This document shows, piece by piece, positions 35,107 through 37,193 of a stretch of 64,000 bases of DNA (within the stretch, counting starts at the first letter, position 1; the number at the start of each line of letters is the position of its first letter). Below the pieces are notes generated by a model. The model ran no database searches. It had not been told where the DNA came from and worked only from the letters and a program-made list of their open reading frames with translations. The stretch comes from Ruegeria intermedia (GTDB lineage: Bacteria > Pseudomonadota > Alphaproteobacteria > Rhodobacterales > Rhodobacteraceae): the NCBI RefSeq assembly GCF_900129345.1, contig NZ_FQVK01000003.1, positions 124,001 to 188,000 on the forward strand. The letters are read 5' to 3'. The position numbers were made by a program, and so were the translations under genes.

Positions 35107-35123
35107 CATGCCTGAAAGAAAGA

Positions 35124-35201
35124 AACGGCGGTTCCCAGGGAGGAGGAGGGGGAACCGCCGTTCTTGGCAACATCAGAGCAGGGAGGAGGAGGGCCCTGAT
35201 G
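35124..35201 (-). ncRNA. CcsR-type sRNA unit 4 (hairpins 1 and 2)
   Basis: Two hairpins. 35124-35162: arms AACGGCGGTTCC / GGAACCGCCGTT. 35171-35201: arms CATCAG / CTGATG. Both present GGGAGGAGGAG on the plus strand, i.e. CUCCUCCUCCC in the minus-strand RNA loop. 78 nt. The last unit of the array, next to the convergent helicase terminator. On the minus strand it is preceded by the ATACCG tag at 35223-35228. Confidence 0.75.
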
Positions 35202-35235
35202 TATCCGAACCCGGGTTTTCCCCGGTATTTGAAGT

Positions 35236-35311
35236 GCGCGGTGACACCAGGGAGGAGGAGGGGTACCACCGCGCTCTTTTCACATCGGGAAGGGAGGAGG
35301 AGAACCCGATG
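35236..35311 (-). ncRNA. CcsR-type sRNA unit 3 (hairpins 3 and 4)
   Basis: Two hairpins. 35236-35274: arms GCGCGGTG / CACCGCGC plus inner ACC / GGT. 35283-35311: arms CATCGGG / CCCGATG. Loops again carry the CUCCUCCUCCC motif (minus strand). 76 nt. The arm sequence of hairpin 3 resembles hairpin 5 of the next unit, with an A-C internal loop in both, so units are related by duplication. The preceding tag is ATACCG at 35334-35339. Confidence 0.75.
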
Positions 35312-35347
35312 CATCCGTTCCCGGGGGCTGCCCCGGTATCTCGAAGT

Positions 35348-35424
35348 GCGCGGCGACGTCAGGGAGGAGGAGGACGCCGCCGCGCGCTTTCAACATCAGG
35401 GCAGGGAGGAGGAGAGCCCCGATG
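35348..35424 (-). ncRNA. CcsR-type sRNA unit 2 (hairpins 5 and 6)
   Basis: Two hairpins. 35348-35385: arms GCGCGGCG / CGCCGCGC plus GTC / GAC. 35394-35424: arms CATC-A-GGGC / GCCC-C-GATG. Loop motif CUCCUCCUCCC (minus). 77 nt. Comparison with unit 3 shows compensatory change in the stem (GGTG/CACC versus GGCG/CGCC), direct evidence that the fold, not the arm sequence, is selected. Tag ATACCG at 35449-35454. Confidence 0.75.
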
Positions 35425-35459
35425 TATCGGCTTCCGGCAGGTTGGGGCCGGTATAGGGT

Positions 35460-35530
35460 GCGGCAGCATCAGGGAGGAGGAGAGATGCTGCCGCTGAAAT
35501 ACAGGTCCTGTGGGAGGAGGAGTGGACCTG
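35460..35530 (-). ncRNA. CcsR-type sRNA unit 1 (hairpins 7 and 8)
   Basis: Two hairpins. 35460-35494: arms CGGCAGCATC / GATGCTGCCG, extended by one G-C pair. 35502-35530: arms CAGGTCC / GGACCTG. Loop motif CUCCUCCUCCC or CUCCUCCUCCCA (minus). 71 nt. It starts 20 nt after the DUF1127 stop codon, with the ATACCG tag at 35535-35540 between, so it is part of the same primary transcript. Confidence 0.75.
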
Positions 35531-35550
35531 ATCTCGGTATTTCGATGCGC

Positions 35551-35775
35551 TCAGCGCGCGTATTGTTCCTCGGCGGCCTGCATGGCCAGGCGGCGGATCA
35601 TCGAGCGGTGCAGGCCCAGATCGGCCAGTTCGCGATCCGACAGCTCGGACAGTTCGTTCACGGTCTGGCGGTACAGGCGGTACCGTGCGAAACGGGTTTT
35701 TGCAGCTTCGATCAGCGACGCGAAGCGGAATGCCGAGGCGCTTTTGACTGCGCTGTTGGTGGATGCGACTGCCAT
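35551..35775 (-). CDS. DUF1127 small RNA-binding-type protein (CcaF1-like)
   Basis: A 74-residue basic protein. The C-terminal half matches DUF1127: YRQTVNELSELSDRELADLGLHR followed by SMIRRLAMQAAEE (given in two pieces). In Rhodobacter sphaeroides the DUF1127 protein CcaF1 is encoded directly upstream of the CcsR sRNA array and binds RNA, influencing maturation of those sRNAs. The same order holds here: the array begins 20 nt after this stop codon on the same strand. Start is the ATG at 35775; the upstream SD is weak (AGG). The Arg/Lys-rich N-terminal helix (AAKTRFARYRLYRQ) fits RNA contact. Name is by context and domain, not proven identity. Confidence 0.85.
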   Translation of the reverse strand: MAVASTNSAVKSASAFRFASLIEAAKTRFARYRLYRQTVNELSELSDRELADLGLHRSMIRRLAMQAAEEQYAR

Positions 35776-35835
35776 GTTCGTTACCTAATCCGTTTGAGTG
35801 ACTGCCGCGTGTCCACGGCGTTTGCTTGAGACTGA

Positions 35836-35865
35836 AAATAGTCGAATGCTGCAGGCGCACAATAC
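35836..35865 (-). promoter_or_regulatory. Candidate heat-shock-type (RpoH) promoter of the DUF1127-sRNA operon
   Basis: On the minus strand GTATTG (35860-35865), 18 bases, CTATTT (35836-35841). The CTATTT -10 and an xTTG -35 resemble alphaproteobacterial RpoH promoters, which drive the orthologous locus in R. sphaeroides. The first base of the -35 (A rather than C in CTTG) is off consensus. The start codon would be about 55 nt downstream. Confidence 0.35.
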
Positions 35866-36238
35866 CGAACGCCCTCAATGCCGCTATGCAGCAAATGCAT
35901 AGATTGACGGGGAAATCCCGTTGCGGCCCAAAGATGCCAATAAAATATGGGTTTTCCGCAGATGCCCTGTAGTTGTCACGGCATCGGGCAAAACTCGCCT
36001 TGCCAATCTTGCCGAAAATTTCCGCGCGTAAAGCTGAGATTTCAGCGTTTCTGAGATGCCTTGAACTCGGGCAGGTCGCGTCAACGGGTGTGCATGGGAT
36101 CAGATGGGAGATGCGGGATTTCGTGGGATAGGCCTGGAAAACGCCTTGGTTCGCCGGGCTGAGAGGCGCAGTGATTCGCATCGATCAGAGTGATTTCGCC
36201 AAAGAATTCGGTTTCGGTGATGGGCGCCTGAAAAAAGT
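35866..36238. other. Intergenic region between the DUF1127 gene and the mraZ leader
   Basis: About 370 bp with no supported gene. Reading frames here are short or cross the DUF1127 gene antisense. Base composition is lower in GC than the flanking genes. I see no convincing terminator or further regulator site in this stretch. Confidence 0.5.
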
Positions 36239-36253
36239 TGGGAATTCATGGGA
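36239..36253 (+). promoter_or_regulatory. MraZ-type operator (TGGGA direct repeats)
   Basis: TGGGA-ATTCA-TGGGA: two pentamers with a 10-bp period, the spacing at which MraZ, the product of the first dcw gene, binds its own promoter (TGGGN repeats with 5-bp spacers). A third, degenerate TGAAA lies one period upstream. An A/T-rich promoter-like stretch follows at about 36270-36300. Confidence 0.6.
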
Positions 36254-36398
36254 AAAAGTCTTCAGTGAAGAATTGAACTATATATTGTGTGCTAATAGGA
36301 ACAACCTACAACTAGAGGTGTAAGTGAGCTGTTTGAAGATTTGCAGAATGAGTGCTATCCCAGTGTGGATTCGGATTCGGGGAAAATTTCTCATTGAT

Positions 36399-36413
36399 TT
36401 CCATGAATTCCCA
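36399..36413 (-). promoter_or_regulatory. Second, inverted MraZ-type repeat
   Basis: On the minus strand TGGGA-ATTCA-TGGAA, again with a 10-bp period. The 13-bp core TGGGAATTCATGG is identical to 36239-36251 in the opposite orientation, 150 bp away. Such a pair could allow looping or a DNA-bridging complex. Confidence 0.45.
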
Positions 36414-36429
36414 TGGCATCCCTTATTCA

Positions 36430-36638
36430 TCCGATGAGGACGAGGCACATGGGGCGCCAAACGACCCCGAACCAACGATAATCAGGTTTCATACAGGCAT
36501 CTCGCTTTCATCACTCAACAGATCCGGCGCGCGGGCGAGCAGACATCCCCCCCCCAGGTGGCGCGCGCAGCTGGACATCCCGCAAAGCGGGTCAATGCGG
36601 CGGGTTGATCGGTGGCAGCAGATCAACCCGCCGTTTTT
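36430..36638 (+). ncRNA. UpsM-like mraZ-leader sRNA (5' end approximate)
   Basis: The 5' UTR of mraZ contains a stable structured segment ending in an intrinsic terminator at 36598-36638 and, before it, a CCCGC-AAA-GCGGG stem (36579-36591) and a GCGCGC / GCGCGC pair flanking a C9 run. In R. sphaeroides the abundant sRNA UpsM is made precisely this way, by premature termination in the dcw leader followed by RNase E processing. The 3' end is well defined; the 5' end here is set from the length of UpsM (about 200 nt) and is uncertain. Confidence 0.55.
36598..36638 (+). terminator. Leader terminator upstream of mraZ
   Basis: A perfect 13-bp stem, CGGCGGGTTGATC / GATCAACCCGCCG, with a 10-base loop (GGTGGCAGCA) and five T. 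It lies 52 bp before the mraZ start codon, inside the dcw transcript, so readthrough must be partial for the cluster to be expressed. Confidence 0.9.
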
Positions 36639-36689
36639 CATCCGGGGGACGCGATTTTTGGTGGGGCGCAAGCGAAAGGGACAGTCGTC

Positions 36690-37193
36690 TTGGCGCGCAG
36701 GTTCAGAGGTGAAAGCCACCACAAGGTGGATGCGAAGGGCAGGGTGTCGATCCCGGCCTCGTTTCGCCGCGTGCTCGAGGCCTCGGACCCCAACTGGCAG
36801 CCCGGCGGCAACCCCGAACTGGTGATCGTCTATGGCGACCATCGCCGTAAATACCTTGAATGCTATACGATGGAGGCGATCGACGAGGTCGATGCCAAGA
36901 TCGACGCGCTGCCGCGCGGTTCGATGCAGCGAAAGATGCTGCAGCGCCTGTTCCATGGCCAGTCCTTCCCGACCACTGTCGATGAAACCGGACGCCTTGT
37001 CCTTCCGGCCAAGCTGCGCAACAAGATCGGGCTGGAGGGCGAGGCGTTCTTCATCGCCGCGGGCGACACGTTCCAGATCTGGAAGCCCGAGACCTACGAG
37101 GCCGAGGAGCTGGCCGCCACCGAGGAATGGCTGGACGAACTGCCCGAGGATTTCGATCCGATGCAGTTCCTCGACGGCATCGAAGGTGCGTGA
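36690..37193 (+). CDS. mraZ: Transcriptional regulator MraZ
   Basis: A 167-residue AbrB-like DNA-binding protein with two SpoVT/AbrB repeats: [20 protein letters not shown] at the start, with the second in [20 protein letters not shown]. MraZ rings bind TGGGN repeats and regulate the dcw operon. The start is TTG at 36690 (ARRFRGE), with AAAGGGA 8 bases upstream; the frame upstream is open to 36612 but lies in the leader terminator. Begins the dcw cluster; the rsmH ATG follows 5 bp after its stop. Confidence 0.92.

Follow-up and report, generated by a model that had tools for sequence, protein, structure and literature searches.

An Eight-Hairpin RNA Array behind a DUF1127 Gene of Ruegeria intermedia and Its Putative Relation to the ccaF1-CcsR Operon

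Introduction

Arrays of small RNAs with repeated hairpins are already known from Rhodobacter and from rhizobia (PMC10253847, PMC3927594, PMC10746234). For Rhodobacter (Cereibacter) sphaeroides, PMC7866481 describes the RNAs CcsR1-4 as being cut from the 3′ region of ccaF1 by RNase E and degraded by PNPase, and calls them Hfq-dependent. A terminator and RNase E processing are described for ccaF1-CcsR relatives (PMC10253847, PMC7866481), and a figure legend in PMC10253847 gives the ccaF1-CcsR operon of R. sphaeroides a RpoHI/HII promoter. Excess CcaF1 is said to disturb CcsR maturation in this organism (PMC8307010).

The rhizobial counterparts are the ar14 RNAs (Rfam family RF02344) with NfeR1 and SmelA075-A099. 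They belong to the "cuckoo" family, which PMC3927594 and PMC10746234 define by several hairpins with a constant CCUCCUCCC loop and variable stems. According to the same sources SmelA075 is stress-induced. NfeR1 is described as Hfq-independent and under the control of LsrB and NtrC; its loops silence ntrB by pairing at the translation start, which a triple-loop mutant does not do (PMC10746234).

Here we describe an array of this type in Ruegeria intermedia. The analysis followed up an initial annotation made from the sequence of a 64,000-nucleotide stretch of DNA, which we call the window.

Results and Discussion

Structure of the Hairpin Array

The minus strand of positions 35124-35535 forms eight hairpins, each with CUCCUCCUCCC in its loop (8/8 by folding), as the initial annotation had proposed. 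The 431-nt array folds with −202.4 kcal/mol compared to a mean of −140.5 kcal/mol for 100 shuffled sequences (z −10.96). The eight loops have 11 nt in common. Exact copies of CTCCTCCTCCC are located on the minus strand at 35138-35148, 35181-35191, 35250-35260, 35292-35302, 35362-35372, 35404-35414, 35472-35482 and 35512-35522. This loop word occurs eight times in the window versus a chance mean of 0.05, a number that none of 100 shuffles reached. In the whole 3.86-Mb genome it was found eight times, always inside the array, and the backwards word four times. The longest uninterrupted stems of hairpins 1 to 8 comprise 7, 11, 10, 13, 9, 13, 10 and 14 pairs; in shuffled flanks stems of at least 7 pairs arose in 1.5% and of at least 8 pairs in 0.5% of the cases. 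The perfect pairing that had been claimed for the arms was not found, since hairpin 1 is bulged and several G-U pairs are present.

The array falls into four two-hairpin units; loop starts are 40–43 nt apart inside a unit and 68–70 nt apart across units. The grouping was recognized correctly in the initial annotation. The lengths given there (78, 76, 77 and 71 nt) have to be replaced by the measured hairpin-to-hairpin spans of 76, 78, 76 and 79 nt. All on the minus strand, unit 1 (35460-35535) consists of hairpins 1 (35496-35535) and 2 (35460-35494), unit 2 (35348-35425) of hairpins 3 (35393-35425) and 4 (35348-35385), unit 3 (35236-35311) of hairpins 5 (35283-35311) and 6 (35236-35274), and unit 4 (35124-35202) of hairpins 7 (35170-35202) and 8 (35124-35162). 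Units 2–4 are each preceded, again on the minus strand, by a folded CCGG..CCGG spacer hairpin without the loop motif, at 35434-35451 (CCGGC..GCCGG), 35321-35336 and 35211-35225 (CCGGG..CCCGG), respectively. The four ATACCG tags reported earlier were all found in place; the tag opens the spacer hairpin in units 2–4 but not in unit 1.

Hairpin 8 is followed by the T-rich tail TTTCTTTCTTT (35114-35123, minus strand), with TTTTT retained in most of 23 aligned sequences, and together they probably double as a terminator. A terminator scan called no terminator for the array because its rule permits loops of 3–8 nt only. The terminator-like last hairpin and the position of all hairpins directly 3′ of a gene would also suit a mere cis element that stabilizes or terminates the DUF1127 mRNA. 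We regard this explanation as highly improbable: a single hairpin would suffice for such a function, and a stabilizer needs no eightfold conserved loop while the stems change.

6C RNAs of actinobacteria consist of two hairpins with C-rich loops. Matches to 6C RNA below threshold were obtained at 35120-35205 (E 0.057), 35455-35536 (E 0.085) and 35344-35428 (E 1). This likeness is probably due to chance or convergence.

DUF1127 Gene and Genomic Locus

The gene directly upstream of the array (35551-35775, minus strand), correctly recognized in the initial annotation, encodes a CcaF1-like DUF1127 protein of 74 amino acids (Pfam PF06568, E 1e-16) and would open the operon. Pairing in hairpin 1 sets in approximately 15 nt past the stop codon of this gene, not 20 nt as had been noted for the array start. 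Only this one of the six DUF1127 genes of the genome has loops downstream, and only this one has the combination of box 1 and TTGTGC-YGCAG (see below) within 500 nt upstream. One of the five others (L215) has a TTGTGC within the same distance; there, the rest of the module is missing.

The gene order in the window is mraZ (divergent), DUF1127, array and uvrD (convergent). Among the matches listed, 41 of the 58 loci that extend far enough upstream have mraZ there in divergent orientation, and 27 of the 47 that extend far enough downstream have uvrD there in convergent orientation; one or the other accompanies the array in 68 of 101. Among the matches listed, the proteins of the locus are most similar to Ruegeria records, with identities of 92% (UvrD, L072), 91% (MraZ, L014) and 79% over 73 amino acids (DUF1127, L110); UvrD is 86% identical to a listed Tropicibacter record, which exceeds the 85% of one Ruegeria record. 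Records close to the R. intermedia genome itself may be absent from this listing. mraZ is the first gene of the division cluster and runs divergently from the operon at approximately 35900-36700 of the window. In R. sphaeroides the mraZ leader yields the sRNA UpsM, as reported in PMC5089854.

Distribution and Covariation in Relatives

Two or more loops at array spacing were detected in 54 of 54 genomes of the genus and in 107 of 149 of the family, own genome counted in both cases; the pattern was missing from 42 of the 149 family genomes. A scan of bacterial and archaeal species for three loops at array spacing returned at least 118 stretches. Of the 118 listed, 102 are alphaproteobacterial or unplaced by title, with L021 ("bacterium") and L085 ("Proteobacteria") counted among them, and 101 of these 102 carry arrays of at least three hairpins. 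The other 16 were rejected as chance or coding matches: at least three hairpins were called in four of them, and DUF1127 was upstream in none.

Uncut arrays (82 among the matches listed) contained 3 to 17 called hairpins, where the folding-based caller detects only CCTCCTCC loops and undercounts arrays with degenerate loops. The longest uncut array among the matches listed, in Wenxinia marina (L080), has 17 called hairpins with a repeating spacing of three hairpins instead of two. An array of 14 loops was found in the family genome G051 (L242); five of its seven listed loop-to-loop stretches are identical, which suggests a recent duplication or conversion of units. Nineteen of 24 genus relatives have 5 or 6 loops, a tally likewise restricted to CCTCCTCC loops, and this number fits three units. 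Unit 3 of the window is an extra middle unit; the Ruegeria arrays L014, L063 and L072 aligned with it have no equivalent. Eight loops as in the window are present in L131.

A DUF1127 gene lies directly upstream on the same strand in 86 of the 101 arrays with three or more hairpins among the matches listed. Ten of the remaining 15 begin within 130 nt of the edge of the locus. Five uncut arrays (L025, L066, L078, L086 and L107) had no recognizable DUF1127 within 700 nt upstream. In one of them, the three-hairpin array of a Rhizobium MAG (L086), two DUF1127 matches are located downstream and none upstream.

The initial annotation had deduced compensatory changes from the paralogous hairpins of the window. 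Alignments of the orthologous loci that could be anchored (22 of 25 in the case of the first two units and 23 of 25 in that of the last) revealed such changes clearly for hairpins 1–4 and weakly for hairpins 7 and 8. In unit 1 (22 orthologous sequences, 20 distinct) two-sided changes occurred in 6 of 23 pairs, a value reached by 2 of 500 shuffles, and 98.2% of the cells pair. The covariation score of this unit exceeded all 500 shuffles and also all slid versions, over which the test favours the given structure since it was taken from the window's own fold. Unit 2 showed two-sided changes in 9 of 28 pairs (0 of 500 shuffles) with 97.0% of the cells pairing. The last unit provided weak evidence with 2 of 31 pairs (reached by 7 of 500 shuffles). 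A measure of further pair types did not exceed the shuffles for units 1 and 2. The spacer hairpin of unit 2 is paired in 100% of the cells of 20 distinct orthologues, with one-sided changes only, and that of unit 4 is invariant in 22 distinct sequences.

Throughout the aligned genus sequences, hairpins 2, 4, 7 and 8 keep the loop core CTCCTCCC without any change. Exceptions occur in hairpins 1 and 3, and some relatives have a shortened loop there. The conserved loops with compensating arms that were expected in related genomes are indeed present.

Relation to CcsR1 and ar14 RNAs

At the Rfam gathering thresholds only two tRNAs were detected in the window. The comparison with CcsR1 (RF02791, gathering score 65.3 bits) that had been recommended gave matches for all four units in a 1801-base search, namely 45.5 bits (E 1.8e-9) for unit 1, 30.5 bits (E 4.8e-5) for unit 2, 32.6 bits (E 1.2e-5) for unit 3 and 34.2 bits (E 4e-6) for unit 4, all below the gathering threshold. 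The four scanned Ruegeria loci L014, L063, L072 and L110 did not reach the CcsR1 threshold either. The two scores with ar14 (52.1 and 49.1 bits) are likewise below the respective threshold of 58.8 bits.

Three family genomes, picked for loop stretches resembling the Rfam consensus (L241–L243), each contain one array unit above the CcsR1 gathering score (94.1, 106.2 and 86.7 bits). Their arrays are located downstream of DUF1127 between mraZ and uvrD and have the same promoter module as the window. Thus, the parallel to ccaF1 and CcsR1-4 drawn in the initial annotation holds. By locus and promoter, the window contains the Ruegeria-lineage orthologue of the ccaF1-CcsR operon, despite the Rfam scores below threshold.

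With ccaF1-CcsR1-4 of R. sphaeroides the array shares the DUF1127 gene, followed on the same strand by four units of two CCUCCUCCC-loop hairpins each, a probable terminator and a RpoH-like promoter sequence; the locus match runs via the CcsR1 arrays of the three family members. Relative to the CcsR1 model the units of the window score below the threshold (30.5–45.5 versus 65.3 bits). The 11 nt shared by the eight loops are a further difference, and the spacer hairpins between the units may be another. With the ar14/NfeR1/SmelA075-A099 RNAs the array has the identical CCUCCUCCC loop and variable stems in common, and its several hairpins place it within the cuckoo definition. The rhizobial RNAs, in contrast, carry three or four hairpins per RNA and not two per unit.

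Promoter Module

Upstream of the DUF1127 gene, TTGTGC-N16-TATTTT (35835-35862, minus strand) forms the presumed core promoter with RpoH-like −35 and −10 regions. Two further elements belong to the conserved minus-strand module. Box 2, TTGTGCGCCTGCAGCAT (35846-35862), overlaps the −35 region and the spacer. Box 1, TATGCATTTGCTGCATAGCGGCATTG (35876-35901), is found at a fixed distance to TTGTGC and includes a PhaR-like dyad at 35879-35893.

In 107 of the loci listed, the sequence upstream of DUF1127 was 150 nt or longer. Five of these loci (L060, L065, L090, L115 and L125), which we assign to the Hyphomicrobiales by name, were left out; L041 (Maritalea) was kept, giving 102. Among the matches listed, TTGTGC was present in 101 of the 102 upstream sequences, TTGTGC[AG]NN[CT]GCAG in 100 and the rigid module GCATRGC-N19/20-TTGTGC in 97, where the 102 are not independent, with 24 of the genus of the window (window included) and some loci duplicated. 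Without the genus and L001–L012, TTGTGC was still found in 70 of 71 and the composite module in 66 of 71 of these sequences. A TTGTGC also occurs in L060, one of the five removed.

The −10 part of the relatives is mostly YATNTT, often CCCCATGTT, with CCATGT as the commonest form (14 rows among the matches listed). We take the YATNTT form to resemble the RpoH-type consensus, which agrees with the RpoHI/HII promoter given for R. sphaeroides (PMC10253847). A sigma-70 scan found no promoter for the array.

The dyad CTGC-N3-GC[AG]G or its mirror occurred in 99 of the 107 upstream sequences among the matches listed, versus 1.5 in shuffles, and in 41 of 620 random 300-nt windows from the same loci. 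The sequence points to a putative switch upstream of the operon that is conserved and resembles boxes of carbon-storage genes, and this is a new lead.

Box 1 holds a second, overlapping inverted repeat, ATGCA-N5-TGCAT, which is visible in many relatives. A GGTCA element is often located farther upstream of box 1 in relatives. A second factor may bind near box 1 at one of these elements.

PhaR as a Candidate Regulator

PhaR of P. denitrificans or R. sphaeroides recognizes TGC-rich sequences according to PMC10888616. For S. meliloti, PMC12542648 reports a palindrome core YGCRNYGCR, the sequestration of PhaR by PHB and the repression of the sRNA MmgR by PhaR. The genome of R. intermedia contains a phaR gene, and PhaR was found in 78 of 80 family genomes. 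A 148-amino-acid ORF between phaC and phaR matched Phasin_2 with E 6.3e-5; its 23.6 bits narrowly miss the cut-off of 24.9. This Pfam test of the presumed phasin gene refers to the R. intermedia genome.

The promoter region of the presumed phasin gene contains CTGCAGCGCAG and CTGCGATGCGG, 29 nt apart. A pair of boxes 26–30 nt apart precedes the presumed phasin gene in 20 of 30 phaR loci. In all 20 the second box follows immediately on a TTGNNN, and behind it lies an ORF of 147–178 amino acids. Counted upstream of phaR itself, after one of the 30 loci (L186) that could not be anchored had been left out, a box was present directly upstream in 5 of 29 loci (shuffled mean 1.3) and farther upstream, at the presumed phasin gene, in 24 of 29 (shuffled 4.1).

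A matrix was built from the phasin-gene boxes on both strands. In 1074 random windows its 99% level was 9.0 and the maximum 14.7. Box 1 of the window scored 18.1. Among the matches listed, a site above the 99% level was found in 94 of the 102 array upstream sequences (64 of 71 without the genus and L001–L012), and box 1 itself exceeded it in 86 of 97. Box 1 scores are below the phasin-box median of 25.7. Like PhaR (AniA) operators, box 1 has a TGCTGC-N3-GC[AG]GC dyad. In contrast to the phasin-gene boxes, whose central triplet is nearly always RNY, the array dyad has ATA or ATG at its centre in 78 of 81 readable rows among the matches listed, and box 2 exceeded 9.0 with the phasin-box matrix in none of 101. 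In the genome TGCTGCNNNGCRGC matched 41 times versus 7 times for the backwards control. Of the 34 matches inspected, 33 fall within some ORF of at least 100 amino acids, which does not discriminate because the array promoter and the phasin site also fall in ORFs.

In stationary phase R. sphaeroides is reported to have lower CcsR1 and very low ccaF1 levels (PMC8307010, PMC11354728), which is an ill fit to a simple storage switch. Among the best literature matches for PhaR, phasin or polyhydroxybutyrate together with DUF1127, CcsR or CcaF1 (in one case the best 15 of 11,472), no report of PhaR control of a CcsR-type operon was found; PMC9230146 mentions PhaR and DUF1127 separately, and PMC11354728 mentions polyhydroxybutyrate and CcsR separately.

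We only tentatively propose, with some doubt, that in Rhodobacteraceae the operon might be a direct target of PhaR, a repressor that binds PHB granules. When the carbon store is full, PhaR would leave box 1, and together with RpoH this would turn the operon on, so that the RNAs would shut GGGAGGAG genes of uptake and catabolism. Another regulator that recognizes a TGC dyad at box 1 is possible.

Proposed Function of the Array and Candidate Targets

We give a probability of roughly 0.8 to the following reading of the whole operon. A single transcript would start approximately 50 nt upstream of DUF1127 at the RpoH-like promoter and end at hairpin 8. It would encode the small DUF1127 protein and carry the four two-hairpin sRNAs in its 3′ region. 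RNase E would cut the AU-rich linkers between the units under the influence of the DUF1127 protein. The two CUCCUCCUCCC loops of each mature RNA would pair with the extended Shine-Dalgarno sequence GGGAGGAG in target mRNAs, keep ribosomes from binding and thereby lower target expression. The number of units may set the dosage. The near-fixed loop would be the working part, and the stems would hold it open and be free to drift.

By analogy to NfeR1, whose loop pairs at the start of ntrB, the eight loops should cover extended Shine-Dalgarno sequences. The pattern GGGAGGAG-N4-10-ATG matched 21 times in the genome and its backwards control once. Four of the 21 are the other strand of the array, which leaves 17 candidates. 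Pfam was run on 16 of these, including some edge-cut proteins; the 21-amino-acid frame of L221 was left out. The candidates comprise two solute-binding proteins, an acetyl-CoA synthetase, another AMP-binding ligase, a phenylacetate catabolism protein, a molybdenum hydroxylase, a sulfide dehydrogenase flavoprotein, a short-chain dehydrogenase, a mandelate-racemase-type enzyme, a lactone oxidase and an alanine symporter. Off this theme are a glycosyltransferase, a ParB-like, a nuclease-like and a DUF6362 protein and a recombinase. As candidates from a motif count these genes may be targets; genes with strong Shine-Dalgarno sequences may carry such motifs anyway.

The core of the anti-Shine-Dalgarno sequence is CCUCC, which occurs twice in the loop. 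Loops made under stress could act as an unspecific global brake and dampen all mRNAs with strong Shine-Dalgarno sequences without selected targets. The variable stems, which show no evident target-specific sequence, and the up to 17 hairpins per array among the matches listed would agree with this. We consider such a brake unlikely, since the core CTCCTCCC, invariant in hairpins 2, 4, 7 and 8, extends beyond CCUCC and so speaks for longer pairing with only some of the mRNAs, and flhR is reported as a specific target of CcsR (PMC8307010).

RNAs of the RsmZ type titrate CsrA. By the same principle the eight loops might serve as a multivalent sponge that binds and titrates the DUF1127 protein or another RNA-binding protein. 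The repetition of one identical loop on variable stems, again in up to 17 hairpins per array among the matches listed, would suit a sponge, and the R. sphaeroides relative of the adjoining gene encodes an RNA-binding protein (PMC10253847). However, the same loop in NfeR1 acts by pairing with ntrB at the translation start (PMC10746234), and the loop is exactly complementary to Shine-Dalgarno sequences. The sponge thus appears less probable still than the global brake, and we prefer repression of target mRNAs by loop pairing.

Conclusions

In the family the ccaF1-CcsR locus is a widespread feature, in which the number of units varies while the loop core hardly changes. PhaR is one named candidate for the control of the operon besides RpoH, and its involvement would connect carbon storage with the control of translation. 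If this tentative assignment is true, the operon would constitute a storage-sensing translational brake on carbon intake.
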